Virus record (IMG/VR): IMGVR_UViG_3300021085_001452
Span: 1 to 54,642 of that record
Reading direction: 5' to 3' (one strand)
DNA length: 54,642 nucleotides
Source of the DNA: a virus
In this document: positions 5,594-53,778 of the stretch, one piece after another
Layout: each line of letters starts with the position of its first letter
How positions within the stretch are numbered: the first letter of the stretch is position 1
The notes under the pieces: model-generated
What the model saw: the letters and a program-made list of their open reading frames with translations, nothing else
Told to the model about the DNA's origin: nothing
Database searches by the model: none
Position numbers and translations under genes: made by a program

Positions 5594-5901
5594 TGAATAC
5601 GAGCGTAAGAACTGGAGAGTTGATACAAAAGATCGGCCAATGGCATCAAGATAGAAATCTTATTGAAGGTGCTACTGACAAAGACCAAGTATGTAAATTA
5701 ATTCAAGAAGTGGGAGAGTTATCAGATAATGTTTGTAAAGGAAATGATGTTGCCGATGATATTGGCGACTGTATCGTGGTACTTATTAATATTGCCATTC
5801 GTAATAACTTAACTATCGATAAGTGCTTAGAAGTTGCTTATAATGATATTAAAGATCGCAAGGGCAAGATGGTAGACGGAATATTTATCAAGGAGTTATA
5901 A
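5593..5901 (+). CDS. MazG-like nucleotide pyrophosphohydrolase
   Basis: All-alpha NTP pyrophosphatase type. The metal-binding pattern is KLIQEVGELSDN (about 36-47) followed by DVADDIGDCIVVL (about 52-64), the usual E-x-x-E ... E/D-x-x-D arrangement. The 102 aa length suits a single-domain MazG. Such enzymes remove non-canonical or regulatory nucleotides. Placement directly before two glycosyltransferases would suit control of the dNTP pool in a DNA-modifying phage, which is inference. A second MazG-like gene is at 42732. Confidence 0.8.
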   Translation: MNTSVRTGELIQKIGQWHQDRNLIEGATDKDQVCKLIQEVGELSDNVCKGNDVADDIGDCIVVLINIAIRNNLTIDKCLEVAYNDIKDRKGKMVDGIFIKEL

Positions 5902-6809
5902 TGGCAGGAAATCAACCAAAATATCCAATTTATATTATCTCTAAAGGTAGAGCAGACACTAGACTGACTGTTAAGACCCTAGAGGCAAATGGCACTCCTT
6001 ATACTATAGTAGTTGAACCACAAGAATATAATGATTACGCTGCAGTCATTGACCCAGCTAATATTCTGGTTACTCCATTTACTAATCTAGGGCAAGGATC
6101 AATTCCTGTGCGTAACTTTGTATGGGAACATGCATGTTCAACTGGTGCAAAAAGACATTGGATTCTTGATGATAATATACAGCATATGTATAGATTACAT
6201 AAGAATGCTAAAATAAAGATCACCGACGGAACGTGCTTTAGTGCTAGTGAAGAATTTACTGATAGATATACAGATGTTAAAATGTCAGGTTTAAACTACA
6301 GTTACTTCTTACCAGCAACTACTAAGCGCCCACCTTACTATCATAACACTAGAGTATATTCTTGTATCTTATTGGCTAATGATATTTATCCAGAGTTTGC
6401 CTGGAGAGGTAGATTCAATGAAGATACAGACTTGTCTCTAAGGATTATGAAGGCAGGATACCATACTTTCTTATTTAACAACTTTGCTTGTGGTAAGATT
6501 ACTACAATGACAATGAAAGGTGGTAACACAGAAGAGTTATATAATATCGACCAAACGGGAGATCAGAACAATCGTAAAGGAAATGAAGAATATGATAACA
6601 GACGAGAGTTTGCAGAATCATTAAGGAAGCAACATCCAGATTGTGTTAAGGTTACTTGGAAATGGGGTAGGTGGCATCACCACATTGACTATTCTATTTT
6701 CCAGAAAGAAAAACCTACTCTTAAATCGGACCTAAATATACCTAAAGGTATTGACGATAAAGGTCTAAAACTAGTCAGATTAAAACAGGAGGCATTAAAT
6801 GGCAGTTAA
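5901..6809 (+). CDS. TET-associated-type glycosyltransferase, copy 1
   Basis: Predicted GT-A-fold glycosyltransferase of the TAGT group, known in phages for adding sugars to modified DNA bases. Visible family marks are YIISKGRAD (11-19), VVEPQEYNDY (37-46), the RNF/R-x-W helix and the metal-binding HWILDDN (86-92). An acidic FNEDTDLSLRIMKAG lies in the second half. The C-terminal tail is basic and may contact DNA. AAGGAGT precedes the ATG. Copy 2 follows at 7158. The target base is not evident from this window. Confidence 0.8.
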   Translation: MAGNQPKYPIYIISKGRADTRLTVKTLEANGTPYTIVVEPQEYNDYAAVIDPANILVTPFTNLGQGSIPVRNFVWEHACSTGAKRHWILDDNIQHMYRLHKNAKIKITDGTCFSASEEFTDRYTDVKMSGLNYSYFLPATTKRPPYYHNTRVYSCILLANDIYPEFAWRGRFNEDTDLSLRIMKAGYHTFLFNNFACGKITTMTMKGGNTEELYNIDQTGDQNNRKGNEEYDNRREFAESLRKQHPDCVKVTWKWGRWHHHIDYSIFQKEKPTLKSDLNIPKGIDDKGLKLVRLKQEALNGS

Positions 6810-7158
6810 AAACAATTCAACAAAAGATAGACAAGCCAATTACGAAGGTGAAAGTCTATTTGTATTATCTGGAGAAGAAGAGATAGAAACACCACATCAG
6901 TGGGATTCTATGCCTGAATTCGATCAGAAACAAAATGAAGCATGGAAAATGTTAAAGATCAGATTTAGAAATGAAGAAGATTTAATGGCATTTGCAGAAT
7001 TAGTTGGTCAAACAGTAACACCTAAAACAAAAGGTATTTGGTATCCAGCAGCAGATAAATCTAAGAATTCACTACTTAGATGGATGCATGAAGATCAGAT
7101 AGAAGGTAATCCAGATGTGGATGCAGTTCTTAGTGATGAGGAGATTAGGGTAGAATAA
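6799..7158 (+). CDS. Conserved small protein between the two glycosyltransferases
   Basis: A 119-residue acidic protein containing HQWDSMPEFDQ and RFRNEEDLMAFAELVGQ...TPKTKGIWYP (about 54-77). The latter is a pattern I recall from many phage and nuclease-associated proteins of unknown role. It overlaps copy 1 by 11 bases and abuts copy 2 (TAATG), so all three are probably translated together. An accessory or DNA-recognition subunit of the glycosyltransferases is plausible but unproven. Confidence 0.75.
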   Translation: MAVKNNSTKDRQANYEGESLFVLSGEEEIETPHQWDSMPEFDQKQNEAWKMLKIRFRNEEDLMAFAELVGQTVTPKTKGIWYPAADKSKNSLLRWMHEDQIEGNPDVDAVLSDEEIRVE

Positions 7159-8084
7159 TGATTGATGTAAAGAAGTATTTAGAAGAAGATCAAGACTTGT
7201 TTGCTATGATGGATGGGACTCAACAGGGTTCAACATTTAATTTAGTTGCTTTAGTAGAAGATTTAATTGCAGACTATGCAAATCAAAATCTACAAAGATA
7301 CACAGTATATATCCCTTCTAAAGGAAGAGCTTCATCACATAGTACATATGACCTATGTCGAGCAGAAAATATTCCATGTAAGATAGTAGTTGAACCCCAG
7401 GATTACGAACAATACGTTGAGACTGTTCCGCATACTCATATTCTAACCTTAGATAAAAATGATCAAGGTATACAATATGCTAGATCATGGATTAAAAGAT
7501 ATTCTAATAATGAAGGCGAATCATATCACTGGCAAATGGATGATGATATGAAATACTTTACAATGAGAATGGATGATAAAAATAAGAAAGTGAATTTAGT
7601 GAATTCAATGTCAATTATTGAATCTGTATTTTCACTCTTTGAGAATGTTGCAGTTGGTGGTATGACCTCAAATGCATTTGCATTTTCTAAACCACACCCT
7701 GTAAAGCTCAATCAACTAGGGTATGGCTGTTCTATCATTAACAATGATTTTGAACAAGAATGGAGAGACAAGACTGTAGAAGATTGGGACTATACATTAA
7801 ATGCTCTAGAGGCAGGAATGTGTACAATCGCCTTCTCTCACATTAATTTCCAAACGCCGTCATCCGGCACAAACAAAGGTGGTAATAATCTTACCGATTG
7901 GGCAACTATTGAAAAAAGAAAAGAATTTTATGATTACTTTGCATCACTCTGGCCTAAAAACTTTAGGGTAGTGGAGTTAGTAGAAGGATCAAGTAAGGGC
8001 TACAAGTTAGAACATAAAAGAAGATTTTTTAACGATTATAAAAATTTAAAATTAATTTTAAAAACCTCTTTACAAACAGACTGA
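7158..8084 (+). CDS. TET-associated-type glycosyltransferase, copy 2
   Basis: Diverged paralogue of the 5901 product. It has VYIPSKGRAS (50-59), IVVEPQDYEQY (76-86), a canonical triple-aspartate HWQMDDDM (124-131), and a VEDWDYTLNALEAG acidic segment (about 212-225). Unlike copy 1 it carries about 45 extra N-terminal residues and a short basic C-terminus. The metal motif is DDD here and DDN in copy 1, so the two may use different sugars or acceptors. The promoter for the next unit begins just before its stop. Confidence 0.8.
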   Translation: MIDVKKYLEEDQDLFAMMDGTQQGSTFNLVALVEDLIADYANQNLQRYTVYIPSKGRASSHSTYDLCRAENIPCKIVVEPQDYEQYVETVPHTHILTLDKNDQGIQYARSWIKRYSNNEGESYHWQMDDDMKYFTMRMDDKNKKVNLVNSMSIIESVFSLFENVAVGGMTSNAFAFSKPHPVKLNQLGYGCSIINNDFEQEWRDKTVEDWDYTLNALEAGMCTIAFSHINFQTPSSGTNKGGNNLTDWATIEKRKEFYDYFASLWPKNFRVVELVEGSSKGYKLEHKRRFFNDYKNLKLILKTSLQTD

Positions 8085-8097
8085 ATTGTAGTATAAT
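8069..8097 (+). promoter_or_regulatory. Sigma70-like promoter overlapping the end of the second glycosyltransferase
   Basis: TTTACA at 8069-8074, a 17-bp spacer and TATAAT at 8092-8097, with TGTAG. The predicted start of transcription, near 8104, leaves only about four bases before the ATG at 8108. Confidence 0.8.
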
Positions 8098-8107
8098 ATA
8101 CAATATT

Positions 8108-9034
8108 ATGGATAAAGTTTCTGGTACACTATTTGAATCACTCTTCGATATCAAGACAGATAAGAAGTTTGTATTCCCAACATTCAAAGAGTTTGAATCT
8201 ATACTATATCGCCTATCCGAGAAACCAAGAAAAGATAAAAAGTCAGCAGAGTTAATGTCTCCTGCTTTTTATCCTGCTGGTAGTACAAGGAAAAACGATA
8301 ATGTAGAAGGCTGGGGTGGCTGGTGTGCCATAGATGTAGATGATTGCACTGAGGACTTAGAACAGTTCCTAGAGAAAAAGTGTAAAGATTATTATTATAT
8401 CTGTTACTCTACTGCTTCATCCACAAAGGACTTGCCAAAGTTTAGACTTGTCTTTCCCCTTACTGAGTTTGTTACAAAAGATAAGATTAAACATTTCTGG
8501 TTTGCACTCAACAAGGAACTTGGAGAAATGGGTGATATACAAACCAAAGATTTATCAAGAATGTATTATATACCCGGCAAGTATGCTAATGCATATAACT
8601 TCATCTTTACTAAAGAAGGTAAGGCAATATCCCCTATGGATATTATGTCAAGACACGAGTATATAGAAAGAAGTGGTAATACATTCTTTGATAAATTGCC
8701 TAAGAAGATGCAAGAAGCCATGATGGCTCATATGAAATCATCTTTAACAAATACTAAGGTTACATGGACTGGTTATAAAGACTGTCCTTTCTTTCCAAAG
8801 AAATTAGAACAAGAATATAGAACGATTACAGGCAGTGGCTGGTATCATAAAATGTATCAGATAATGGTAGCACTGGCTGGTAATGCAATAAACAATAAAT
8901 ATCCAATTACTGCTAAAGAAATTGCCTACTTATGTAGGGAATTAGATTTAGATACTGGTAATTGGTATGATAAAAGACCATTAGATAAAGAGGCTGAAAG
9001 GGCCTTAGAATTTGTACATAGGAATAGTTTATGA
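8108..9034 (+). CDS. Archaeo-eukaryotic-primase-like protein
   Basis: The N-terminal half reads like a primase-polymerase (AEP) catalytic domain. It has a D-x-D in GWCAIDVDD (D76, D78), then YSTASSTKDLPKFRLVFPL (100-118) with the conserved S-T and K-x-R, then a third acidic position and the SRMYYIPG motif (150-157). The C-terminal half is helical, like primase C-terminal domains. T4 uses the TOPRIM primase gp61, which is not in this window, so this could be an alternative or additional primase. Fold assignment is by motif reading only. There is no ribosome binding site, and the mRNA would be nearly leaderless. The stop overlaps the next ATG. Confidence 0.65.
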   Translation: MDKVSGTLFESLFDIKTDKKFVFPTFKEFESILYRLSEKPRKDKKSAELMSPAFYPAGSTRKNDNVEGWGGWCAIDVDDCTEDLEQFLEKKCKDYYYICYSTASSTKDLPKFRLVFPLTEFVTKDKIKHFWFALNKELGEMGDIQTKDLSRMYYIPGKYANAYNFIFTKEGKAISPMDIMSRHEYIERSGNTFFDKLPKKMQEAMMAHMKSSLTNTKVTWTGYKDCPFFPKKLEQEYRTITGSGWYHKMYQIMVALAGNAINNKYPITAKEIAYLCRELDLDTGNWYDKRPLDKEAERALEFVHRNSL

Positions 9035-10212
9035 GGGATATTACAGTAGTAGGTGCAGGATATGTTGGTATGGCCAATGCAACGATGTTGGGTCAACAAA
9101 ATGTTGTTAAGATATTAGAGTTAGATAAAGAAAAAGTAGAGCTAATCAATAACCAAGTATCACCAATTATAGATCCAGAAATTTCTGATATGTTAAAGAG
9201 TGTGGGATTAGTTGCCACTACATCTGCAGATGAGGCATATACAGATCAACCAGAGATCGTGTTAATTGCAACTCCAACTGATTATGATCCAGAATCAGAT
9301 TCCTTTAATACTAAGTCAGTAGAATATGTTATTGGCGATGTAGTAAGAAGAAACTTTAAACCTACTATTATAATTAAGTCAACGATACCTGTAGGCTTTG
9401 TTGATGAAATGAGAGAGAAATACCAATACGAAAATATTATATTCTCGCCAGAGTTTTTAAGAGAGGGAAGAGCACTTAGAGATGCATTAAGACCCACAAG
9501 GATTGTTATAGGTGATAAGACTGATGAGGCAGAAGAATTTGCCAATGTATTAAAAGAATGTATTATACCAAACTTTCCAGAGGCACCAGTGATATATACA
9601 GGAACTAAAGAGGCAGAGGCAATTAAATTATTTGCAAATGGATATCTTGCAATGAGAGTAGCCTTTTTTAATGAGCTGGATATGTATGCAGAAAGATTTG
9701 GACTTAGTCCCCGTGATATTATAGAAGGTGTGGGCTATGATGAAAGAATTGGCAGACACTATAATAATCCTTCATTTGGTTATGGCGGTTATTGTTTTCC
9801 CAAAGATACAAAACAATTAAAAGCACTCTACACTAAAGGTAATATACCTAACAATATTATATCATCAATAGTTGATTCTAACGATACTAGAATGGATTGG
9901 GTAACTCGAAGAGTATTATATAAACGACCTAAAACAGTAGGTATCTATAGGCTGATTATGAAGTCTGGTTCAGATAACTTTAGAAGTTCTGCAATACAAG
10001 GTGTTATAGAAAGATTAAAGAAGAGAACAAATGTAATTATTTACGAGCCAGAGTTCTGTGATTTTACCACTAAGATTATGGATTGTGATTTAGTACATAA
10101 TATCAATGAGTTTAAAAGAAAATCAGATGTGATTATTACCAATAGAATGGAATCTGAGCTCTTAGATGTTTATGATAAAGTTTATACGCGAGATGTATTT
10201 AATAATAATTAA
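9031..10212 (+). CDS. UDP-glucose 6-dehydrogenase (UDP-glucose/GDP-mannose dehydrogenase family)
   Basis: NAD-dependent four-electron oxidation of UDP-glucose to UDP-glucuronate. The Rossmann motif GAGYVG is at 8-13, IKSTIPVG at 115-122, SPEFLREGRA at 139-148 and the catalytic cysteine C255 in GYGGYCFPKDTKQL. Length 393 aa is normal for the family. The start ATG overlaps the stop of the primase-like gene. Together with the epimerase at 10274 it would make activated sugars for the glycosyltransferases upstream. Cell-surface sugar synthesis is the alternative. Confidence 0.92.
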   Translation: MRDITVVGAGYVGMANATMLGQQNVVKILELDKEKVELINNQVSPIIDPEISDMLKSVGLVATTSADEAYTDQPEIVLIATPTDYDPESDSFNTKSVEYVIGDVVRRNFKPTIIIKSTIPVGFVDEMREKYQYENIIFSPEFLREGRALRDALRPTRIVIGDKTDEAEEFANVLKECIIPNFPEAPVIYTGTKEAEAIKLFANGYLAMRVAFFNELDMYAERFGLSPRDIIEGVGYDERIGRHYNNPSFGYGGYCFPKDTKQLKALYTKGNIPNNIISSIVDSNDTRMDWVTRRVLYKRPKTVGIYRLIMKSGSDNFRSSAIQGVIERLKKRTNVIIYEPEFCDFTTKIMDCDLVHNINEFKRKSDVIITNRMESELLDVYDKVYTRDVFNNN

Positions 10213-11902: not shown

Positions 11903-12331
11903 ATGTATCAGTATAAAGCGTATGTGGTAAGAGTAGTAGACGGAGACACAATTGATGTAGATGTTGATTTAGGTTTTGGAATGACTTATAAGAAGCAAAG
12001 AGTTAGAATGGTAGGAATAGATACACCCGAATCAAGAACAAGAGATTTAGAAGAAAAGTTTTTTGGAAAGGCTTCTAAGGCTCATCTTAAAAAACTATTA
12101 GAAGAAAATGATAATAAAGTTTATTTAACATCACATGATAAAGGTAAGTTTGGCCGTATTTTAGGTGACTTACGATTATCACCTAATGATGTAGAAACTG
12201 TTAATCAAATAATGATTAAAGATTTTCATGCTGTTGAATATTACGGCGGGAATAAAGAGCTAACTGAAAAGGCTCATTTGGAGAATAGAGTAGCACTTGG
12301 ACTTAAAGGGCTAGTTTATGGTAATGATTAA
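11903..12331 (+). CDS. Thermonuclease-like nuclease (SNase family)
   Basis: OB-fold calcium-dependent nuclease. YVVRVVDGDTIDVDVDLG (about 7-24), the catalytic R-x-x-GIDTPE segment (RMVGIDTPESR, about 34-44) and KGKFGRILGDL (about 81-91) match the staphylococcal nuclease pattern. The sequence has no signal peptide, so it acts inside the cell, perhaps in host DNA breakdown or DNA repair. AGGAGG precedes the ATG. Length 142 aa is typical for the isolated domain. Confidence 0.9.
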   Translation: MYQYKAYVVRVVDGDTIDVDVDLGFGMTYKKQRVRMVGIDTPESRTRDLEEKFFGKASKAHLKKLLEENDNKVYLTSHDKGKFGRILGDLRLSPNDVETVNQIMIKDFHAVEYYGGNKELTEKAHLENRVALGLKGLVYGND

Positions 12332-12351
12332 TTATATTATGGAGAAAAAAT

Positions 12352-13020
12352 ATGGCTTATCCTAAAGCATTTATGGAAACACTTGGTCAATATGTATACG
12401 CATATTACCCCGAAGGACTTGATAAACAACCTGAGTATGTAGGTAAAGGGGTAGATACCCGTTGTCTATCTCACGTTAAAGATAAAGATCAAGACCCGGC
12501 AAACCTTTACATCATGGGTAGAAACTTGGAAAAATATGCCAAGTCAACCCCCTCGGAAGACATTGCATCTTTTGCCGCAGAGGCAGCAATCATTGCAATT
12601 ACGAATCCTAAGTTAAATAGTGTTTCAGGCAGATATGGAAAGTTATGGAATCCTACTAGATTGGATGATCTATATACAGAATGGAAAAAAGAACAAATTA
12701 ATCCAGTAAAAGAATCAATGAGATTTTATAACGACCACCCCGAAATACAAGACCATGTTAAAGGTATGTGGGTAACTGGTAAAACATTTGTATTTACTCA
12801 ATCAACAGTCGATGGAATTGAATATTTATTATATGTTACTCCAGAAGTAGATACATTTATTCCATTGGTAAAGGTAAAGTTTAGTGCAAAGAATAGAGAC
12901 GAGCTAAGAGATCAGTGGGTACAAGATAATGAAAAAGATTATGAACTAACTGCTGACGGAGAAATGATAAACGTAAACGGATTATCTGTAGAACAAGCAA
13001 TAGAACTTTGGTTATCATGA
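12352..13020 (+). CDS. GIY-YIG-type nuclease, LEM-3-like
   Basis: The N-terminus carries YVYAY (14-18), YVGKG (29-33), R37 and H41, and an AEAAII segment near 72 supplying the metal-binding glutamate. The pattern PEGLDKQPEYVGKG matches the LEM-3/COG3680-like GIY-YIG branch better than homing enzymes. The second half (about 110-222) is unrelated and may be a DNA-binding or regulatory domain. It may serve in host DNA degradation, as DenA does in T4. The stop TGA overlaps the next ATG. Confidence 0.75.
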   Translation: MAYPKAFMETLGQYVYAYYPEGLDKQPEYVGKGVDTRCLSHVKDKDQDPANLYIMGRNLEKYAKSTPSEDIASFAAEAAIIAITNPKLNSVSGRYGKLWNPTRLDDLYTEWKKEQINPVKESMRFYNDHPEIQDHVKGMWVTGKTFVFTQSTVDGIEYLLYVTPEVDTFIPLVKVKFSAKNRDELRDQWVQDNEKDYELTADGEMINVNGLSVEQAIELWLS

Positions 13021-13439
13021 GAGTAGGAATTACAGCATCAACATTTGACTTGCTACATGCAGGTCATTGTGCTATGTTAAGAGAAGCAAAAACACAATGT
13101 GATTATCTTATCTGTGCACTACAGAATGATCCATCAGTTGATAGACTAGAGAAGAATAAACCAGTTCAGAATATAGTAGAAAGACAAGCACAACTCGCCG
13201 CTATTAAATATGTGGATGAAATCCTAGTATATAATACAGAAGAAGAGTTGCTAGATATTTTAGGAATGTATGATATTAATGTCAAGATTATGGGAGAAGA
13301 GTATAGAGACAAAGACTTCACCGGCAGAGATTTATGCAAACAAAGAGATATTGATTTCTATTTCAATAAGCGAGATCATCGCTTTTCAACTACAAATTTA
13401 CGCAAAAGAATTAAAGAAAACACTTTACATTCTAAGTGA
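13017..13439 (+). CDS. Cytidylyltransferase-like nucleotidyltransferase
   Basis: HIGH-motif nucleotidyltransferase. GITASTFDLLHAGH (4-17) is the nucleotide-binding loop, and a terminal RFSTTNLRKRI is the second ATP-phosphate motif (S-T-T-x-x-R). This matches glycerol-3-phosphate cytidylyltransferase-like proteins (TagD group) of about 130-140 aa. Start ATG 13017 overlaps the upstream stop. The frame extends back to a TTG at 13008 with no support. Its last codons contain the -35 box for the bS21 promoter. Substrate unknown. Confidence 0.85.
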   Translation: MRVGITASTFDLLHAGHCAMLREAKTQCDYLICALQNDPSVDRLEKNKPVQNIVERQAQLAAIKYVDEILVYNTEEELLDILGMYDINVKIMGEEYRDKDFTGRDLCKQRDIDFYFNKRDHRFSTTNLRKRIKENTLHSK

Positions 13440-13452
13440 TTTGTAGTATAAT
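13424..13452 (+). promoter_or_regulatory. Sigma70-like promoter for bS21-uvsX
   Basis: TTTACA at 13424-13429 lies inside the end of the upstream gene. A 17-bp spacer and TATAAT at 13447-13452 after TGTAG follow. A strong AGGAG ribosome binding site is downstream. Confidence 0.85.
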
Positions 13453-13479
13453 ATACTTAATATTTAAACAGGAGAAAAT

Positions 13480-13749
13480 ATGCCATCAATAGATTTAAGA
13501 CCTAGGAAACCAAGAAACCCTAGGGATAAACGACCACAGAAACCAATGCCGTTTGATGTAGCCCTAAGAAAATTTAGAAAGGCTGTCGAACGTGCTGGTA
13601 CTCTGCAAGATGTACGCAGAAAGGAGTTCTATGAAAAACCTACTGCAAAACGTAAACGTAAAAAGGCCGAAGCCGTCGCAAGGTGGAGAAAAAAAGAAAG
13701 GGCCATCATGCAACAATTAGGGACGGGTAGTTCCAGGAGAAAAAGATAA
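13480..13749 (+). CDS. rpsU: Ribosomal protein bS21 homologue
   Basis: The core [17 protein letters not shown] (24-40), [11 protein letters not shown] and [16 protein letters not shown] is unmistakable bS21, a small-subunit protein near the 3' end of 16S rRNA involved in initiation. At 89 aa it is longer than E. coli bS21 (71 aa), with a proline- and arginine-rich N-terminal extension and a basic C-terminal tail. Phage bS21 has been reported in pelagiphage HTVC008M. It has its own promoter and an ATG overlap (TAATG) with uvsX, so it is made early and could bias translation toward phage mRNAs. Confidence 0.93.
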
Positions 13750-45857: not shown

Positions 45858-45984
45858 GGAAGTAGATAAAGTATTTTGGCAAACAGTTGAATATGAGAGA
45901 ATGTTATTTGAAAAAAATAGCAAAAAGAATGAGGAAAAAAATGGCAATATGGTTTATGAAGGAACAGGAAACAACAATGAATAG
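45826..45984 (+). CDS. Small charged protein between structural gene and lysozyme
   Basis: Fifty-two residues from ATG 45826, with AAGGAA upstream, overlapping the previous gene by 32 bases. LKLTQEQLFKEVDKVFWQTV and YERMLFEKN form a helix. The function is unknown. Confidence 0.55.
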   Translation: MLKLTQEQLFKEVDKVFWQTVEYERMLFEKNSKKNEEKNGNMVYEGTGNNNE

Positions 45985-46423
45985 AGAAAAAGTATTTGAG
46001 CAATTAAAAGAGGACGAAGGGGTCGTATATGCAATATATAAAGATCATCTGGGATATCCTACTTTTGGGGTGGGACACTTGGTACTCGACTCTGATCCGG
46101 AACACGGATCTGAAGTTGGCACTTTGGTTTCCGAAGAGCGAGTTAAAGAATGCTTCGAGCGTGATCTCGATATCGCCGTCGAAGAATGTAATCAGCTATA
46201 CGAAGGAGGGGAATTTAGTAACTTACCCGACGAAGTCCAGCAGATATTGGTCAACATGATGTTTAATATGGGTAGAACCAGATTAAGTAAATTTAAGAAA
46301 ATGCACGCGGCTATACTAAAGGGTGACTGGAAAGAGGCCGCAGTTGAGGGGAGAGATTCAAGATGGTACAAACAAGTGACAAACAGGGCGGAGAGACTCA
46401 TGTCGAGACTCGAGGCAGTGTAA
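45977..46423 (+). CDS. GH24 lysozyme (T4 lysozyme-like)
   Basis: Muramidase. The catalytic E14 is in KEDEGVVYAIY, D23 in YKDHLGYPTFGVGH, with T29, in the same spacing as T4 lysozyme E11/D20/T26. LVNMMFNMGRTRLSKF and SRWYKQVTNRAERLMSRL match the C-terminal half. Start at ATG 45977 gives 148 aa (T4: 164). It has no signal peptide, so it would need a holin. Bases 46081-46200 are about 47% GC, higher than the neighbours, hinting at separate origin. Confidence 0.93.
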   Translation: MNREKVFEQLKEDEGVVYAIYKDHLGYPTFGVGHLVLDSDPEHGSEVGTLVSEERVKECFERDLDIAVEECNQLYEGGEFSNLPDEVQQILVNMMFNMGRTRLSKFKKMHAAILKGDWKEAAVEGRDSRWYKQVTNRAERLMSRLEAV

Positions 46424-46856: not shown

Positions 46857-46864
46857 TATAAATA
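46857..46864 (+). promoter_or_regulatory. T4-late-type promoter box at the head of the curli operon
   Basis: TATAAATAG stands directly after the hairpin. By the T4 rule, +1 would be 46870, the A of the first ATG of the operon, so the mRNA would be leaderless. No ribosome binding site is seen there. Confidence 0.5.
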
Positions 46865-46869
46865 GATAT

Positions 46870-47166
46870 ATGGAAGATGTGTTCAAACTAATTGCAGACG
46901 TTGGAGCGCCAATAGCAGGATCACTTGTTATGGGCCTATTTATTTTTATTGTCATAAAACAAATATTGCAAGGTATAGTAGAAAAGATTAATACTCTTAC
47001 TATATTTGCAAAGAGTTTAGAGAATAGAGCACGAACAATGAGCAATGAAATGATAAAGATTGACTTACTTGTAAGTACTGCATTAGATTTACGACCAGAT
47101 ACAGAGAGAATAGCTAGGGCTGAAAACTTTATAGAAGATGGTAAATTAGATACTAGGAGAGACTAA
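46870..47166 (+). CDS. Small membrane protein, first gene of the curli operon
   Basis: Ninety-eight residues: MEDVFKLIADVGAPIAG, one membrane span (about 16-35, SLVMGLFIFIVIKQIL), then a cytoplasmic or periplasmic coiled-coil (KINTLTIFAKSLENRARTMS, NEMIKIDLLVSTALDLRPD). Its N-terminus and layout parallel the next gene, so the pair probably arose by duplication. A phage holin-like or scaffold role for the secretion pore are both possible. I recall similar pairs in cyanophages, without known function. Confidence 0.65.
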   Translation: MEDVFKLIADVGAPIAGSLVMGLFIFIVIKQILQGIVEKINTLTIFAKSLENRARTMSNEMIKIDLLVSTALDLRPDTERIARAENFIEDGKLDTRRD

Positions 47167-47438
47167 TGGATGTAGCTCAATTAGTTTCAGACTATGGGTT
47201 TCCTGCCGTGATGGCTGTAGGAATGGGGTATTTTATATACTATGTCTATAGGTTTATTAATGAACATATTGAGCCCAAATTAGATGAAATGCACATGGCA
47301 TTGATAAGGGTAATTGATCAGACTAGAATGTTAGATCAGGATTTAATAAGACTACAACAAAAAGTAAATGTAATCTTAGAAATGCGTGAAAATGAAAAGA
47401 AGAGAAAGGCTAGAGGAAAAGATGATAAAGGGAAATGA
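47166..47438 (+). CDS. Small membrane protein, paralogue of the preceding gene
   Basis: Ninety residues: MDVAQLVSDYGFPAVMAVGM, a membrane span (GYFIYYVYRFI) and a coiled coil (LDQDLIRLQQKVNVILEMRE) ending in a basic tail (KKRKARGKDDKGK). Its ATG overlaps the previous stop. It ends inside the csgF leader region, overlapping by 17 bases. The matched topology suggests the two proteins form a heteromer. Confidence 0.65.
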   Translation: MDVAQLVSDYGFPAVMAVGMGYFIYYVYRFINEHIEPKLDEMHMALIRVIDQTRMLDQDLIRLQQKVNVILEMRENEKKRKARGKDDKGK

Positions 47439-47925
47439 ACCAATTTTAATATTAGTAACAGCATGTATAATGTTCGTATTAGCACAATCTGCAATGGCAG
47501 ATGAAATAAAGTTCGGGTTTAAAAATCCTTCTTTTAGTGGAGTTGGAACAGGTAATCATTATCTTACTATTGATAATATAGAACACACTAGAAAGAAAGC
47601 TATAGAGGATGCACTTGAAGCGGCAAGAAGAGCTGCACAAAGAGAAGAAGATAATAGTGTTTTGGCAAAGTTTATAAGAAACTTAGAGAGCAGAATATAT
47701 GCTCAAATGGCAAAACAATTAGTGGAATCAATGTTTTCAAATGATGATTCGGTTAGATTCGGGTCATTTGTTTTAGAAGGTAATACTATTACTTATGAAG
47801 TAATTACTAATGCAGATGGATCAGAAGTTATTAGAATGACAATTATATCTGAGGACGGCAGTGAAACTGTTATAGAAATTCCAGTAGGTGCAGGTAATTT
47901 CGGGCAGGATCCAGACAATGGTTAG
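47422..47925 (+). CDS. csgF: CsgF-like curli assembly protein
   Basis: In bacteria CsgF caps the CsgG pore and nucleates curli outside the outer membrane. I start at ATG 47422, which follows GAGGAAAAG. This gives a signal peptide with cleavage after AQSAMA (residue 26). The mature start KFGFKNPSFSGVGTGNHYL matches the CsgF F-x-NPSFGG region that inserts into CsgG. The end (YEVITNADGSEVIRMTIISE, ETVIEIPVGAG) matches the CsgF C-terminus. Length 167 aa versus 138 in E. coli. It overlaps csgG. Confidence 0.85.
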   Translation: MIKGNEPILILVTACIMFVLAQSAMADEIKFGFKNPSFSGVGTGNHYLTIDNIEHTRKKAIEDALEAARRAAQREEDNSVLAKFIRNLESRIYAQMAKQLVESMFSNDDSVRFGSFVLEGNTITYEVITNADGSEVIRMTIISEDGSETVIEIPVGAGNFGQDPDNG

Positions 47926-48889
47926 AGCTCTTATATTATCATCAATGTTAATTATTACTGGATGTGCTTCTATACCTCAATGGAGCCCTAACCCACAAGA
48001 TTGCAATGATCTTGAAGGTAAGTATGAACAAGGATTTGATAGACATCTAGTTATGGGTATACAGAAAACCATGGCTAGAAAATATATATGTGTAGATGAA
48101 CCAACAGCTGTTAGATTACCTGCATATGTAGACTTACTAAACTTACCACCAGCAAAAGATAAACCTGTTGTTGCGGTTTATTCATTTAAAGATTTAACAG
48201 GCCAGAGAAAGTCAGTAGATAATATTGCATCTTTCTCTACAGCAGTCACCCAAGGTGGCACAGAATTACTAATAGATGCTCTTAAAACTGCCGGAGGCGG
48301 TACATGGTTTAGAGTAGTAGAAAGACAAGGTATTGATAATCTAGTTAGAGAAAGACAGATTATCAGAAGTGGTAGACAAGATGTTGCAAGACATCAAGGT
48401 AATACTGCAAAAGAATTGAGTCCACTCTTATTCGCCGGAATAATTATAGAGGGTGGTATTATTGGTTATGATACTAATACTGAAACAGGTGGCCGTGGCG
48501 CACGTACACTTGGTATAGGTTTTAGTAAGATGTATAGAAAAGATGTAGTTACTGTTTCAGTAAGAGCAGTTTCAGTCTTAACAGGTGAAGTTTTATTAAA
48601 CGTCCAATCTAAGAAATCGGTACTTTCTTATGGTGGTGGCGGCGATGTATTCAGGTTCATTGAACAAGGTACACAGCTGATTGAATATGAGGACGGAGTG
48701 GGAAATAATGAGAGTGTGACATACGCAGTACGAGCAGCAGTCGAGGCAGCAGTACTAGAACTAATATACCAGGGGCATGACCGTAACTTCTGGAACATAA
48801 CTGAGGGTCATCGCCATCCCCATCAACACGATGGAAATAACGATAGACACTCTATAATAGAGGATAACGAAAATGAAGAAATTAATTAG
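47918..48889 (+). CDS. csgG: CsgG-like outer-membrane secretion channel lipoprotein
   Basis: Curli export channel. Lipobox IITGC with C16. After it come about 60 residues not in E. coli CsgG, including two extra cysteines. Then VAVYSFKDLTGQRK, NIASFSTAVTQGGTELLIDA, FRVVERQGIDNLVRERQIIR, GIIIEGGIIGYDTNTETGG and RGARTLGIGFSKMYRKD match CsgG nearly segment by segment. The C-terminal tail is histidine-rich (HRHPHQHDGNNDRH) and also unique. I chose ATG 47918, within the csgF end. A curlin gene follows, overlapping by 17 bases. Confidence 0.93.
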   Translation: MVRALILSSMLIITGCASIPQWSPNPQDCNDLEGKYEQGFDRHLVMGIQKTMARKYICVDEPTAVRLPAYVDLLNLPPAKDKPVVAVYSFKDLTGQRKSVDNIASFSTAVTQGGTELLIDALKTAGGGTWFRVVERQGIDNLVRERQIIRSGRQDVARHQGNTAKELSPLLFAGIIIEGGIIGYDTNTETGGRGARTLGIGFSKMYRKDVVTVSVRAVSVLTGEVLLNVQSKKSVLSYGGGGDVFRFIEQGTQLIEYEDGVGNNESVTYAVRAAVEAAVLELIYQGHDRNFWNITEGHRHPHQHDGNNDRHSIIEDNENEEIN

Positions 48890-49613
48890 CTTTAGTTTAG
48901 TAACTAGCTTATTATTTGCAAATTTTTCTGTGCAAGCTGATGATGATAACGAAATTATGATCGAGCAAAGTGGTGATACTTTAACCATTTATATTGATCA
49001 AATTGGCTATGGTAATAAAATCGGCCTAGATGATTTTTCATCATCAGGTTCAAATATGACCATTGTAGGTTCTTCGTTAACATTTGATATTGATATGCTA
49101 GGTAACCAGAATTTAATTTATGGCCCTATTGAAATGGACTCTTCTGACTTAACATTTTCTTTAACTGGTGATTCCAACGAAGTAGATTGGAATATTGGTT
49201 ATACTGCAAGTTCAGATGATTCAGATTATAACTTTGATATAACAGGTGATAGTAATACCTTTAATATTGATCAAGGTTTTGTTACAAGTGCAGAAAGATT
49301 AGATGCTGACTTAGTTCTTATTGGTGATTCCAATGTCTTTGATTTAGATTTCGAAGCAGACGATTCAACTTGGGACTTTGATATTACTGGTTCAAGTAAT
49401 AATATTAATACACTACAGAATGATGGTTCACAAGAATTAACTGTTGAACTTAATGGTGATTCTGCAGACATTGATATTAATCAGATTTCTGGTACTTGTG
49501 CTAGTGGAGCAGGAGTTGGTTGTGCAACACCAAATGCAATTATAAACTTAGATATTACGTCTGATAATGCTACTATACAGATTAATCAGCAAGATACTTC
49601 AAACGACTCTTAG
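48873..49613 (+). CDS. Curlin-like secreted repeat protein, copy A
   Basis: A 246-residue secreted protein. The signal peptide ends after SVQA (residue 22). The mature start has IEQSGDTLTIYIDQIGYGN, the Q-x-G-x-x-N type of curlin repeat. Then come repeated G-(D/S)-S-N-x-F-x-(I/L)-D units (GDSNEVDWN, GDSNTFNID, GDSNVFDLD, GSSNNINTL, GDSADIDIN). It is strongly acidic. The C-terminus carries a cysteine pair (TCASGAGVGCAT). Immediate proximity to csgG identifies it as the likely export substrate. It probably forms beta-solenoid fibres. Confidence 0.8.
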   Translation: MKKLISFSLVTSLLFANFSVQADDDNEIMIEQSGDTLTIYIDQIGYGNKIGLDDFSSSGSNMTIVGSSLTFDIDMLGNQNLIYGPIEMDSSDLTFSLTGDSNEVDWNIGYTASSDDSDYNFDITGDSNTFNIDQGFVTSAERLDADLVLIGDSNVFDLDFEADDSTWDFDITGSSNNINTLQNDGSQELTVELNGDSADIDINQISGTCASGAGVGCATPNAIINLDITSDNATIQINQQDTSNDS

Positions 49614-50685
49614 TATAATACTTCTGTTACCTAGTTTTGCAATTGCAGATGAAGGTATCGGAAGTATTGTTGAGTCTACTGGTATTGGGCAGATATTAAG
49701 AAATCAAGAAAGTGTATCAATGAATGTTGATACCGAAATAGTATTAAATGATGTAGCAGAAACAGGTAAGGGAAGAATGTTAATAGAGTTTTTAGATAAG
49801 GCTCAATTGGCATTAAAAGAACACAGTGAAGTATTAATAGATGAAGTATATTATGATGCTGACCCATCCCTTTCCAAAATGACAATGAAGTTCACGATGG
49901 GTACGGCAAGGTTTGCTTCGGGTAGATTAGGTTTAGTAAATAAAGCCAATATAGATATATCTACCCCTACGGCAAGTATAGCAATAAGAGGCACAGACTT
50001 TACCACAACTGTTGATGAATTGGGTAGGTCTTTAGTGATTTTATTACCAGATGAATATGGAAATCCATCTGGAGAAATAGAAATAGAAAATTTAGGTGGA
50101 ACAGTAACTCTTACTGAAGCATATCAAGCCACAATGGTAAGTAGTTTAGATACGCCACCAACAAGAGCAGTAAAATTAACTGGAATTACTCCAGCAGTAA
50201 TAGACAATATGTTTATTGTTGCACCACCTCCAGAAGTATCTGATAGAATACAAGAAGAACTAGCTGACGATCAGAATGATGACCAAGGTTTATTAGATAT
50301 AGATTTTTTGGAGTTTAATGAATTAGAAAAAGATGCACTGGAAGAATCAGAGGCTGAATTAGATTTTAGTGAATTAGATATTGATGAATTAGATGTTGAA
50401 TATTTAGTTGATGTGTTAGATATTATAGACTCGTCGGATTTATTTGATACACTAGGTGAGTTTGATATTAAAGGTGCAGCAAGAGGATTCAATGAAGAAT
50501 CTCAATATAATGTATATTTGGAAGATGGCAGTTTAGTACTATATAGAAAAGTAAACGGAACTATAAAGGTTAAAATAGGAACCGGAAATAACTTTACACT
50601 AGAAACTAATACTCCAACATGGGAAGGAAATATAACTGGAAACGACGGCGAAGATGTTTTCATTTATATCAATCAGGTAAATTAA
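49567..50685 (+). CDS. Secreted FecR-domain protein with acidic C-terminus
   Basis: A 372-residue protein. The signal peptide MLLYRLISKILQTTLSIILL ends in SFAIA (residue 27). A FecR domain covers about 30-190, with the hallmark TPTASIAIRGTDF (133-145). FecR proteins are periplasmic sensors or regulators. Residues 225-310 are very acidic (DDQNDDQGLLDIDFLEFNEL), and the C-terminal 60 residues are beta-rich. It overlaps curlin A by 47 bases, so the start could be debated, but only this ATG gives a signal peptide. In bacteria FecR genes often stand beside CHASE2 cyclases. Confidence 0.85.
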   Translation: MLLYRLISKILQTTLSIILLLPSFAIADEGIGSIVESTGIGQILRNQESVSMNVDTEIVLNDVAETGKGRMLIEFLDKAQLALKEHSEVLIDEVYYDADPSLSKMTMKFTMGTARFASGRLGLVNKANIDISTPTASIAIRGTDFTTTVDELGRSLVILLPDEYGNPSGEIEIENLGGTVTLTEAYQATMVSSLDTPPTRAVKLTGITPAVIDNMFIVAPPPEVSDRIQEELADDQNDDQGLLDIDFLEFNELEKDALEESEAELDFSELDIDELDVEYLVDVLDIIDSSDLFDTLGEFDIKGAARGFNEESQYNVYLEDGSLVLYRKVNGTIKVKIGTGNNFTLETNTPTWEGNITGNDGEDVFIYINQVN

Positions 50686-51393
50686 ATGAAAGAATTAATA
50701 TTTGTTTTAAGTATGTTAGTATTACCACTAATGTGTTTTGCTGATGATAATATTATCAGTATAGAACAGTCAGGTGATAATTTACAATTAGGCATTGATC
50801 AGGTAGGTTATAATAATAGAGTTGAAATGAAAGATGGCAATTCATATATTAACTCATCAAGTCTATCAATGTATTTAGTACAAGTCAATGATAGTGATGG
50901 TGTTAATAAAATAATCTTTGATGAAGTAAGTGGTACCGATAATAAAATAAAATTAGCACAAGGAGTTGCATGGAATACTCTTGATTCTGATACGGACTTA
51001 ACTTGGTGGGCAGACGGATATGAAGGTGGCGGCCATGAAATAGATATTACACTCTATGGTGATAATAATGAGATGGCAGTTCAACAAACAAACCAAGGGT
51101 CTACTACAGGCCATAGCTTTGATCTACACTTAGCAGGTGATGATAATAAAGTTCAAGTTAAACAACAAAGCGATGGTGATAAGAATCTAAACTTAACAAT
51201 CTATAATGATTATAATGATGTATTTGTTCGCCAAAAAGGTAATAATACAAGTCATAATGCAAACATAACGCTTGACGGATTATACGGAACAGATTTAATC
51301 TTAAAACAAATGAGTACTACAAGTCAAGCATATACTATATCAGTAGATTGTATAACAGTAGGCGGTTGTGCAGTTAATGTATTACAAGAATAA
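50686..51393 (+). CDS. Curlin-like secreted repeat protein, copy B
   Basis: A 235-residue secreted protein. The signal peptide ends near MCFA (residue 19). The mature start IEQSGDNLQLGIDQVGYNN repeats the pattern of copy A. Later units are YGDNNEMAVQQTNQG, AGDDNKVQVKQQSDG and YNDYNDVFVRQKGNN, closer to the curlin Q-x-G-x-x-N rule than copy A. The end has a cysteine pair (DCITVGGCAVNVLQE) matching copy A in place. Copies A and B flank the FecR gene and may be major and minor fibre subunits. Confidence 0.8.
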   Translation: MKELIFVLSMLVLPLMCFADDNIISIEQSGDNLQLGIDQVGYNNRVEMKDGNSYINSSSLSMYLVQVNDSDGVNKIIFDEVSGTDNKIKLAQGVAWNTLDSDTDLTWWADGYEGGGHEIDITLYGDNNEMAVQQTNQGSTTGHSFDLHLAGDDNKVQVKQQSDGDKNLNLTIYNDYNDVFVRQKGNNTSHNANITLDGLYGTDLILKQMSTTSQAYTISVDCITVGGCAVNVLQE

Positions 51394-51451
51394 TTACCAC
51401 AGATTTATTTGGTATAAGTATGGATCACCCAATCTAGGTAAAGGAATTTAT

Positions 51452-51469
51452 ATGGATATATGCATATGA
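51452..51469 (+). CDS. Possible five-codon leader frame coupled to the cyclase start
   Basis: ATG 51452 opens a five-codon frame whose TGA (51467-51469) overlaps ATG 51466, the third codon of the cyclase frame. AAAGGA sits six bases before ATG 51452, so ribosomes may reach the cyclase by coupling. Weak, positional evidence only. Confidence 0.3.
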   Translation: MDICI

Positions 51470-53295
51470 AATATCTAACTTCTATATGGGCTACTCTAGC
51501 ACTTACATTCGTTTTAGTTTTAGTTAGACTATCTGATCCTTCTTGGTTACAAGAATTTAGACTTACTGTATTCGATCAATATACAACATCAATTAAAGAA
51601 ACCACATCTGATAATATAATACTTTTAAATATATCAGAAGAAACATTAGGCGTTCACGGCCAATATCCATTTCCTAGACAAACTTATGCACAGATGATCT
51701 CAGACTTGCGTAATGCAAATGCAGGTATGATTGTGTTTACAATTATGTTTCCAGAAGCAGATAGATTCGGTGGCGATGAAGTATTCGCCTCTTGGATAAA
51801 AGATAATGGTATTATATTATCACAAGATGCTGACCCTAGTGGAAGAAGTAAACAGGCTCCTTATGTTGGCTCTGCAGTATTTGGAACTGGAGACCCTTTA
51901 GATTGGTTAATAAAATATGATGGTTTAGTTACTAACATACCACAGCTAGAGTCAGGAGCGTGGGGTCACGGACTTGTAAACGCAATGCCAGAAGTAGATG
52001 GAGTAGTAAGAAGAATGCCACTCCTATCACAAATCAATGAACAAGTATACCCATCACTTGCACTAGAAACTATTAGAATATTACAAGAGAGACCATCTTA
52101 CACTATAAAGGTAAATGATGTAGGTATTGAAGAAATTATTTTAAGACCGTTTAGAATTACAACTGATGTAAATGGTTCTATATGGCTAAATCCTAATATT
52201 AACTTTACTCAAATAAACTACGGGTCCAATGAGTTACCGAACTTGAAAGGGAAGACTGTTGTGGTTGGTCTAACTGCTTCTGGTTTGGCGTCTCAGATTC
52301 CAACTCCATCTGGTATGAAACCTGCGCATTTAATTCACGCAGCTGCCATTGAGACCATCGTTTCTGGTACTCAGATATCCAGGCCTCTGTGGGCTGATAT
52401 GTTGGAACTTCTAATAGTAATTCTTGGTTCTGGCCTTCTTGTATTTGCTGTGTATAGATTACCGATTTGGATTTCTGGTCTGACATTTATATTACTCTCT
52501 TCTAGTGTTATAGGTGGATTTATTTATATTTGGCAAACTTATAATATATTATTATCACCTTTAAGTGTCTTACTCATTTATATAGTATCTTTCACATCAT
52601 CAAGTTTTAATAATTTCTATAAACAGTTTGTACTCCGACAGCAAATTAAGAAACAGTTTGAAACTTACTTAGACCCAAGACAAGTTATGTTGTTACAAAA
52701 AGATCCTTCTCTATTAAAACTTGGAGGAGAGCGAAAAGAAATGTCCTTCTTATTCATGGATATAGTAGGGTTTACTCCTATATCAGAACACTATAAGAAC
52801 AATGATGATCCAGAAGGGTTAGTAAAGATTATAAATAGTTATTTAGATACAATGACAAAAATCATTCTAAAAAATGGCGGCACAATTGATAAGTATATGG
52901 GAGATTGTATTATGGCGTTTTGGAACGCTCCTTTATCTTGTGAAGATCATGCCGATATGGCAATAAAAACTGGATTAGAAATATTAAAGGCGGCAGATGA
53001 ACTTATTAAAGAGTTGGAAGAACAAGGTTTACCTAGGATTGATGTGGGGATTGGTATTAATACCGGCGACTGCATCGTCGGAAACATGGGATCGGAATCC
53101 CGATTTGACTATTCCGTCATTGGAGATGCCGTCAACCTTGCCGCTAGACTTGAAGGACAGACACGCAATTATGATGGGGTACGAATGTTGTTGGGCCCAA
53201 TCAGTGCGGGACAGAGTAAAAATGGATTACTCAAACACGTTGATACAATCAAGGTTAAAGGAAAAGAAGAGCGCGTACGAATCTATACAGTTTGA
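51460..53295 (+). CDS. CHASE2-domain membrane class III adenylate/guanylate cyclase
   Basis: 611 residues. One membrane span (about 4-22), a periplasmic CHASE2 sensor (about 30-305, with DNIILLNISEETLGVHGQYP, FPRQTYAQMISDL and NLKGKTVVVGLTASGL), three spans (about 314-380), then a cyclase domain (about 424-611). Catalytic positions are present: metal aspartates D434 (FMDIVGFT) and D482 (KYMGDCIMAFW), base-pocket K478 and S552 (FDYSVIGD), and transition-state N559 and R563 (VNLAARLE). The K/S pair resembles K/T adenylate cyclases. It likely makes cAMP in response to a periplasmic cue. ATG 51466 is an alternative start. Confidence 0.92.
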   Translation: MHMKYLTSIWATLALTFVLVLVRLSDPSWLQEFRLTVFDQYTTSIKETTSDNIILLNISEETLGVHGQYPFPRQTYAQMISDLRNANAGMIVFTIMFPEADRFGGDEVFASWIKDNGIILSQDADPSGRSKQAPYVGSAVFGTGDPLDWLIKYDGLVTNIPQLESGAWGHGLVNAMPEVDGVVRRMPLLSQINEQVYPSLALETIRILQERPSYTIKVNDVGIEEIILRPFRITTDVNGSIWLNPNINFTQINYGSNELPNLKGKTVVVGLTASGLASQIPTPSGMKPAHLIHAAAIETIVSGTQISRPLWADMLELLIVILGSGLLVFAVYRLPIWISGLTFILLSSSVIGGFIYIWQTYNILLSPLSVLLIYIVSFTSSSFNNFYKQFVLRQQIKKQFETYLDPRQVMLLQKDPSLLKLGGERKEMSFLFMDIVGFTPISEHYKNNDDPEGLVKIINSYLDTMTKIILKNGGTIDKYMGDCIMAFWNAPLSCEDHADMAIKTGLEILKAADELIKELEEQGLPRIDVGIGINTGDCIVGNMGSESRFDYSVIGDAVNLAARLEGQTRNYDGVRMLLGPISAGQSKNGLLKHVDTIKVKGKEERVRIYTV

Positions 53296-53626
53296 ATATG
53301 CACCATCAGCTGATTGGGAATACTGGGCTTTATTTTTAATAGTACAATATCACGATATAAACTCCACCGCAAAAGCAATGAAGTATGAATGTGTATATGA
53401 AGTTAATCCATTTTTACCTAAAAGACCTTCCAAAGCAAGATTGTTTCAACATAAAATACTTACACTTTATCCTGTCTTACACCCTGACTTTAATAAACAT
53501 CCGATTACTAATGAAGACCTTCTTGCCGTAAGCATGATGACAGGCCTTGTAGTTAACCATAATTACAATGTATTAAATAAAATCAAAAAATACCCAGACA
53601 GGTGCCCTAGAATAGGAACACTCTAA
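53222..53626 (+). CDS. Small ExNP-motif protein, probably membrane or envelope associated
   Basis: The conserved part follows the cyclase stop: WALFLIVQYHDINSTAKAMK, EVNPFLPKRPSKARLFQHK and LLAVSMMTGLVVNHNYNVL. D-x-x-x-T and E-x-N-P are typical of a family of short membrane proteins (DUF5658-like) found in phages and bacteria. I place the start at ATG 53222, inside the last 74 bases of the cyclase. The same frame stays open back to ATG 52997, where it would begin with a signal-peptide-like sequence (see findings). Function unknown. Confidence 0.6.
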   Translation: MDYSNTLIQSRLKEKKSAYESIQFEYAPSADWEYWALFLIVQYHDINSTAKAMKYECVYEVNPFLPKRPSKARLFQHKILTLYPVLHPDFNKHPITNEDLLAVSMMTGLVVNHNYNVLNKIKKYPDRCPRIGTL

Positions 53627-53644: not shown

Positions 53645-53673
53645 TTTACAAGCAATCTGACTTGTAGTATAAT
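53645..53673 (+). promoter_or_regulatory. Sigma70-like promoter
   Basis: TTTACA at 53645-53650, a 17-bp spacer and TATAAT at 53668-53673 after TGTAG. It is 105 bases upstream of a second such promoter, giving a tandem pair for the 53814 gene. Confidence 0.8.
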
Positions 53674-53719: not shown

Positions 53720-53755
53720 AAAAAAAATGAAAAAAAATGAAAAAAACACTTTACA
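53720..53755 (+). repeat. 36-base A-tract promoter repeat, copy 2
   Basis: Identical over 36 bases to 17910-17945: A-runs separated by TG, then CACTTTACA. Confidence 0.85.
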
Positions 53756-53778
53756 AGCACATAAAAGTGTAGTATAAT
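53750..53778 (+). promoter_or_regulatory. Sigma70-like promoter with A-tract upstream
   Basis: TTTACA at 53750-53755, a 17-bp spacer and TATAAT at 53773-53778 after TGTAG. CGGAG precedes ATG 53814. Confidence 0.85.

Follow-up and report, generated by a model that had tools for sequence, protein, structure and literature searches.

What would a phage do with the pore of a curli (type VIII) secretion system, and why would a periplasmic FecR-domain protein and a membrane-bound nucleotide cyclase travel with it? These questions are raised by a nine-gene cassette in IMG/VR virus record IMGVR_UViG_3300021085_001452, a genome fragment of 54,642 bases, the whole of which was analyzed and is called the window below. 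We consider it somewhat better than an even bet that this cassette is a phage-borne type VIII secretion system coupled to a FecR-CHASE2 cyclase pair and expressed as one late transcript. The CsgG-CsgF pore would export two curlin-like proteins, CurA and CurB, which may assemble into amyloid-like fibers on the infected cell. FecR, by means of a curlin-like C-terminal strand, would sense curlin or the status of export in the periplasm and control the cyclase through its CHASE2 domain. The fibers would most likely act late, so that an infected or lysing cell becomes sticky or is masked, with specificity perhaps set by CurB, the component that phages exchange.

Gene content, order and transcription of the cassette

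An earlier note, made from the window sequence alone, had described nine co-directional genes behind a late-type box, and all nine (9/9) were found on the plus strand, overlapping or closely spaced (Table 1). For seven of them the identification is backed by curated models or phage models, and for the ExNP gene by comparison with its relatives. The two pore assignments, on which the note had made its reading depend, are confirmed by sequence models: the product of the gene at 47918 aligns with the Escherichia coli CsgG of solved structures (3.6e-46, over 231 residues), and that of the gene at 47422 covers the CsgF profile PF10614 in full. No solved homologue of phage CsgF or FecR was found by sequence. 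CurA and CurB contain one Curlin_rpt each, both over the curated cut-off. CurA also has a Cys pair conserved in most relatives, and its AlphaFold model is all-beta and solenoid-like (pLDDT 79, pTM 0.75); a fold search returned beta-helix-like proteins only, none of them significant. CsgE, CsgD and CsgC, which the note had not seen, are likewise missing among the nine genes. Its description of a functional unit is supported: under a late-type promoter stand a pore, a plug, two secreted curlin-like substrates, FecR in the periplasm and a membrane-bound cyclase whose catalytic residues are intact.

To compare gene order, 80 viral loci were retrieved via CsgG and annotated with profiles made from the window genes. 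The two small membrane proteins TM1 and TM2 and CsgF precede CsgG in 84/84 testable loci, and CurA, FecR, CurB and the cyclase lie 3' of it in 36/36. Such an order in marine phages, which the note had proposed to look for, is far beyond chance, and scattered or unlinked genes, which would have spoken against a unit, never appeared in the loci tested. A shorter cassette without CurB is carried by two podovirus-like contigs from Pelagibacter metagenome-assembled genome (MAG) bins. Between relatives, the ratio of nonsynonymous to synonymous divergence (dN/dS) is mostly 0.05-0.25 for most cassette genes, pointing to purifying selection. CsgG relatives are encoded on at least 592 IMG/VR stretches, and the module was detected at 65/65 ocean stations according to PMC9599517; it is very widespread in marine phages. 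The record OR851715.1 (L004), a 1.5-kb unverified and unannotated "Salmonella phage" entry whose CsgG is 41% identical to that of the window, is probably not phage sequence.

The late-type box reported by the note, TATAAATA, keeps its position across loci. It stands 5' of the first gene in 67/88 loci, with a C/GATAAATA variant in 11 further loci, against 18/823 other open reading frames (ORFs) as background, and in 42 loci it begins at -12 to -14 nucleotides (nt) from the ATG. It is practically never found before csgF, csgG, fecR or the cyclase gene (counts before internal genes were 1/91, 0/93, 0/78 and 0/60). The box is not enriched over the whole window (15 seen, 12.5 expected), and its position alone is informative. 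Considering that it is conserved before the first gene and nearly absent before the internal ones, we read the cassette as one late operon. Applying the distance between late box and transcript start in T4 places the transcript start near the ATG, and the transcript is probably leaderless or nearly so, beginning about the start codon, if the box acts here as it does in T4.

No Rfam elements were found near the cassette. Tandem near-consensus sigma-70 promoters (TTTACA-17-TATAAT) lie at window positions 53645-53673 and 53750-53778, between the cassette and the next gene (53814). Elsewhere the window encodes a T4-type clamp loader, DNA polymerase, UvsX, a DnaB-type helicase, NrdA, NrdB, PhoH and a lysozyme, and by this gene content it comes from a T4-like phage of marine origin. 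Positions 5901-10212 contain two genes resembling glycosyltransferases (phrog_842) and one resembling UDP-glucose dehydrogenase, possibly a surface sugar island.

Table 1. Features of the cassette in the window, with two sets of positions in related loci
Feature	Position	Strand	Remarks
Late box TATAAATA	46857..46864	+	T4-type; begins 13 nt 5' of the first ATG of the cassette
TM1, 98 amino acids	46870..47166	+	Single membrane segment at the N-terminus followed by a charged helix; phrog_18771 (3.5e-23), hydropathy
TM2, 90 amino acids	47166..47438	+	TM1 paralogue; phrog_18771 (3.2e-29)
CsgF, secreted pore plug	47422..47925	+	PF10614 (2.6e-14); N-terminal motif FGFKNPSFSG
CsgG, outer-membrane lipoprotein secretion pore	47918..48889	+	PF03783 (2e-54); ITGCAS lipobox
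CurA, secreted curlin-like beta-solenoid	48873..49613	+	Curlin_rpt (7.2e-5)
FecR-domain periplasmic protein	49567..50685	+	PF04773 (1e-7, above cut-off)
CurB, second secreted curlin-like protein	50686..51393	+	Curlin_rpt (2.5e-5)
CHASE2-sensor class III adenylate/guanylate cyclase	51466..53295	+	CHASE2 (6.4e-39), Guanylate_cyc (7.5e-19)
ExNP protein	52997..53626	+	Own signal peptide; shares its first ~300 nt, read in a different frame, with the cyclase gene
CurB swap pairs	L039/L044, L007/L014, L028/L052		
Fe-S-like genes	L014 7987-8502, L018 12986-13390, L059 10583-11339, L060 12461-12916, L066 11734-12482, L270 8510-9539		

FecR, the cyclase and a bacterial pair

The phage FecR protein is laid out as a signal peptide, the FecR beta domain, an acidic helical linker (modeled with low confidence), a C-terminal beta domain and the tail IYINQVN. 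The best Foldseek match of its model is the PupR signaling domain 6ovk (E 5.6e-4). We rejected a role as an anti-sigma factor, which would call for an N-terminal anti-sigma domain, an inner-membrane segment and a partner ECF sigma factor: no anti-sigma domain was found, FecR being the only domain consistently present in 42 members, no sigma gene lies in the cassette, and the N-terminal helix resembles a signal peptide. The tail motif, hydrophobic-x-hydrophobic-x-Q followed by no more than three residues, ends 67/69 cassette FecR proteins, typically as GDxxxIxIxINQSN. The same motif is present in 58/62 CurB proteins and, about eight residues further in, in CurA; among the controls it was seen in 2/624 other ORFs and in 0/16 inspected bacterial FecR proteins. 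By its motif the tail suggests contact with curlin, as a hint and not as proof of homology.

The cyclase gene probably starts at 51466 (MKYLTS...), a correction to the earlier note. Its catalytic residues D434, K478, D482, N559 and R563 (numbered from an ATG at 51460) are all present; in the relatives, D/K/D/R are kept in 48/48 cyclases and N in 46/48. In two loci (L003 15526-17577 and L093 6672-8708), the catalytic domain deviates from the others, with D at the S position and S for the transition-state N, which looks like replacement of the output domain.

At 24 loci with a complete cyclase gene, an ORF with a signal peptide opens 290-371 nt upstream of the cyclase stop codon, in a different frame, and runs on into ExNP. 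Synonymous variation over cyclase codons 550-600 is 0.24 where ExNP is present and 0.57 where it is not; elsewhere in the gene it is 0.33-0.49. Since synonymous variation is suppressed and an overlapping ORF is present, we assign the window ExNP gene its full extent in Table 1. Judging from this variation, its start is most likely at 52997, within the cyclase gene, which again corrects the earlier note. Positions 52997-53295 would then be overprinted, with the signal peptide and the initial ~100 codons of ExNP read in a different frame from the cyclase. By a stricter count, ExNP lies 3' of the cyclase in 21/36 loci, and a relative occurs within the cassette of the podovirus contig L270.

The association of FecR with CHASE2 is also found in bacteria. 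The comparison covered 65 strong FecR and 76 CHASE2 matches listed for alphaproteobacteria, draft assemblies included; among the matches listed, a CHASE2 gene lies within 8 kb of 18/65 FecR genes, against a chance expectation, roughly estimated from 1-2 CHASE2 genes per ~4 Mb, of ~0.5 case. In most of the neighborhoods inspected, the third partner is either a gene for a TPR protein with an outer-membrane barrel, Slam-like or of another kind, or a set of type I secretion genes, and the FecR protein itself is often a large surface protein. In Sinorhizobium meliloti, CHASE2 cyclases work together with NsrA, a barrel protein of the outer membrane (PMC13001267); in Burkholderia, biofilm is controlled by an operon for FecR and a CHASE2 kinase (PMC5192318). 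Given this linkage to outer-membrane export genes, we read the pair as an export or surface sensor and not as an iron regulator; the gene neighborhoods suggest that FecR and CHASE2 may be an old bacterial pair that watches outer-membrane export.

One bacterial chromosome joins the pair to curli. On the 705-kb contig NHBW01000006 (L091) of the Hyphomonas sp. TMED17 MAG, csgF, csgG, a curlin gene, fecR and a cyclase gene stand amid ordinary bacterial genes. FecR and cyclase therefore do occur in a bacterial curli operon, contrary to a statement in PMC9599517. A cyclase like that of L091 was found in 0/105 other genomes of its family. In the CsgG tree, L091 sits within the phage-module clade on a long branch, and transfer between phage and bacterium could have gone either way.

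Some matches labeled bacterial (L085-L090, L092-L095, L100, L244, L269 and L270) were left out of the count of bacterial operons. They look like phage contigs because the TM pair, or other genes of phage type, can be found on most of them. The cassette-bearing contigs L085-L090, L092-L095 and L100 had been binned into MAGs of Rhodobacteraceae, Synechococcus, Sphingobacteriales, Flavobacteriales, Saprospirales, Pirellulales and Pelagibacter; contamination probably accounts for several of these placements.

A broader proposal, which we hold only tentatively and rate as rather doubtful, is that FecR and CHASE2 form a general bacterial outer-membrane export sensor captured by marine phages together with the curli exporter. 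Curlin in transit through CsgG would pull on the FecR tail and set cyclase activity late in infection. Where the host lacks an ordinary cyclic AMP (cAMP) receptor, the nucleotide would have another target or would itself be the effect.

Fibers, lysis or uptake

CurB is exchanged between cassettes. In three independent pairs of cassettes whose FecR proteins are at least 90% identical and whose flanking genes are 83-100% identical, the CurB proteins share only ~40% identity; both ends of the variants retain some similarity and the middle differs. In the alignments CurB behaves as a surface component would under diversifying exchange, which argues for a function in surface contact. IscU- and IscA-like Fe-S genes, identified by eye, are found within or beside some cassettes, around the exchangeable curlin B (Table 1).

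Fast exchange of CurB alleles in near-identical cassettes is typical of arms-race surface proteins, and would also fit superinfection exclusion or surface masking, proposed in PMC9599517, in which a coat of fibers on the infected cell would keep competing phages out. However, the late promoter implies that any fibers would be made late, when exclusion would be least useful, and this timing argues mildly against early exclusion. PADLOC gave nothing notable beyond a generic cyclase domain. On balance, we find exclusion an unlikely main role.

A second alternative brings in the membrane pair. TM1 and TM2 are paralogues, both matching phrog_18771, of 90-98 residues and with a single or borderline membrane segment. 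From their position and number, we infer that they are the published histidine kinase ("HK") genes. That label was rejected for the window proteins, which gave no HisKA or HATPase_c match in Pfam or NCBIfam. The N-terminus of TM2, and only this part, weakly matches the holin family phrog_4898 (E 0.0025, 19 residues) and YvrJ (0.05).

Buchholz et al. (2022), describing the phage Melnitz, proposed that such a cassette helps to time lysis (PMC9004378); CsgG-CsgF would form a pore in the outer membrane or a channel of secretin type, with TM1 and TM2 as holin-like partners. The holin match of TM2 and the late box before the cassette are consistent with this, as is the T4-type lysozyme gene (window 45887-46423) located 447 nt upstream. 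In the podovirus-like contig L269 (Pelagibacter MAG bin), genes resembling a spanin pair, a nuclease and a lysozyme lie 3' of the cassette, at 12147-13670. However, the upstream lysozyme is confined to the window clade (10/56 loci); it is missing from the other 46/56, and we rejected lysozyme linkage as a general trait. Lysis timing also leaves unexplained the two curlin-like substrates found at every testable myovirus locus, the exchange of CurB, FecR and CHASE2. Moreover, PMC9004378 states that csgA and csgB are absent, yet its public record lists two proteins annotated as curlin repeat proteins. We regard this role as improbable, and more so than exclusion.

Least probable of all is nutrient or siderophore import through an ungated CsgG pore with FecR as an iron-dependent regulator, a proposal of PMC9599517 that is favored by the lack of a CsgE gate, by the match of the FecR fold to the PupR cell-surface signaling domain and by the Fe-S genes inserted in some cassettes, but that sits badly with a FecR protein bearing a signal peptide and no anti-sigma domain, with the lack of a cassette sigma gene, with purifying selection on CsgF and two secreted curlin-like proteins, and with the frequent pairing of bacterial FecR with CHASE2. 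The kinase and iron-regulator labels are both probably wrong.

Several points weigh against a fiber-exporting cassette coupled to a FecR-cyclase sensor. Fibers, secretion and cyclase activity are all predictions from sequence. Cultures infected with Melnitz did not clump, as judged by cytometry or transmission electron microscopy (PMC9004378). Searches of Pfam, PHROGs and NCBIfam gave no CsgE match for any of the nine proteins; CsgE raises secretion but is not essential (PMC7029224). Pfam detects no Curlin_rpt in the FecR tail, whose resemblance to curlin is by motif only, and the tail is unstructured in the predicted model. The cyclase signal would also need a reader, and judging from gene content the SAR11 clade seems to have no known one: a PF00027 cNMP-binding protein (cNMP, cyclic nucleoside monophosphate) is encoded in just 4/79 Pelagibacter-family genomes and in none of 12 phage records, the complete HTVC008M and Melnitz genomes included. 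As the host of the window phage is not established, this argument covers its SAR11-infecting relatives. In the same 79 genomes, a class III cyclase match occurred in three, two of them on phage cassette contigs and the third below the cut-off.

Comparison with known systems

The earlier note had taken the combination of FecR and the cyclase to be undescribed, a novelty that we had to discard, since the same module was published by Wittmers et al. in 2022 (PMC9599517). That report describes a pelagiphage module of HK (sometimes two), CsgF, CsgG, CsgA/B, FecR, often a second CsgA/B, and adenylate cyclase, known in podoviruses and myoviruses and seen expressed in metatranscriptomes. It discusses superinfection defense, aggregation, sibling capture, import or uptake through the pore, and recombination. 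Before this, csgF and csgG had been reported in 2020, with "sibling capture" and nutrient uptake as proposed roles (PMC7029224). New here are the late operon box, the corrected labels, the FecR-CHASE2 linkage, the FecR tail, the CurB swaps and the ExNP overprint, which turn an annotation list into testable statements about a widespread marine phage module.

The gene set and order of the window are those of the published pelagiphage module, in which CsgE, CsgD and CsgC are absent too. The window differs from its labels in that the short proteins at the "HK" position have no kinase domain and FecR is not of the anti-sigma type. In the passages of PMC9599517 consulted, we found no description of the ExNP gene, the late box, the FecR tail or the exchange of curlin B. 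HTVC008M (KC465899) and Melnitz EXVC044M (MZ577097) carry eight of the window genes in the same order, including the membrane pair, FecR and the cyclase. Their CsgG proteins, 47% and 41% identical to that of the window, respectively, belong to another CsgG clade, the Melnitz cyclase has S instead of the transition-state N, and neither record annotates ExNP 3' of the cyclase.

Among bacterial systems, the curli machinery (type VIII secretion) of E. coli and Alphaproteobacteria shares with the window the CsgG pore, the CsgF plug and curlin-repeat substrates. In the window, however, CsgE, CsgC and CsgD are not seen, FecR and a CHASE2 cyclase are part of the operon, and the substrates have a single Pfam-recognized repeat and Cys pairs. 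Burkholderia BiofilmReg (PMC5192318) and S. meliloti NsrA-CyaK (PMC7529298, PMC13001267) likewise combine FecR or an outer-membrane barrel with a CHASE2 enzyme in biofilm or surface signaling, but they include no curli genes, and their output is a kinase with a response regulator, or cAMP read by Clr. The Hyphomonas operon has no TM pair and no second curlin, its curlin is longer (504 amino acids) and its FecR lacks the Q-N tail, yet it shares with the window the csgF-csgG-curlin-FecR-CHASE2 cyclase operon and a CsgG that is 57% identical.

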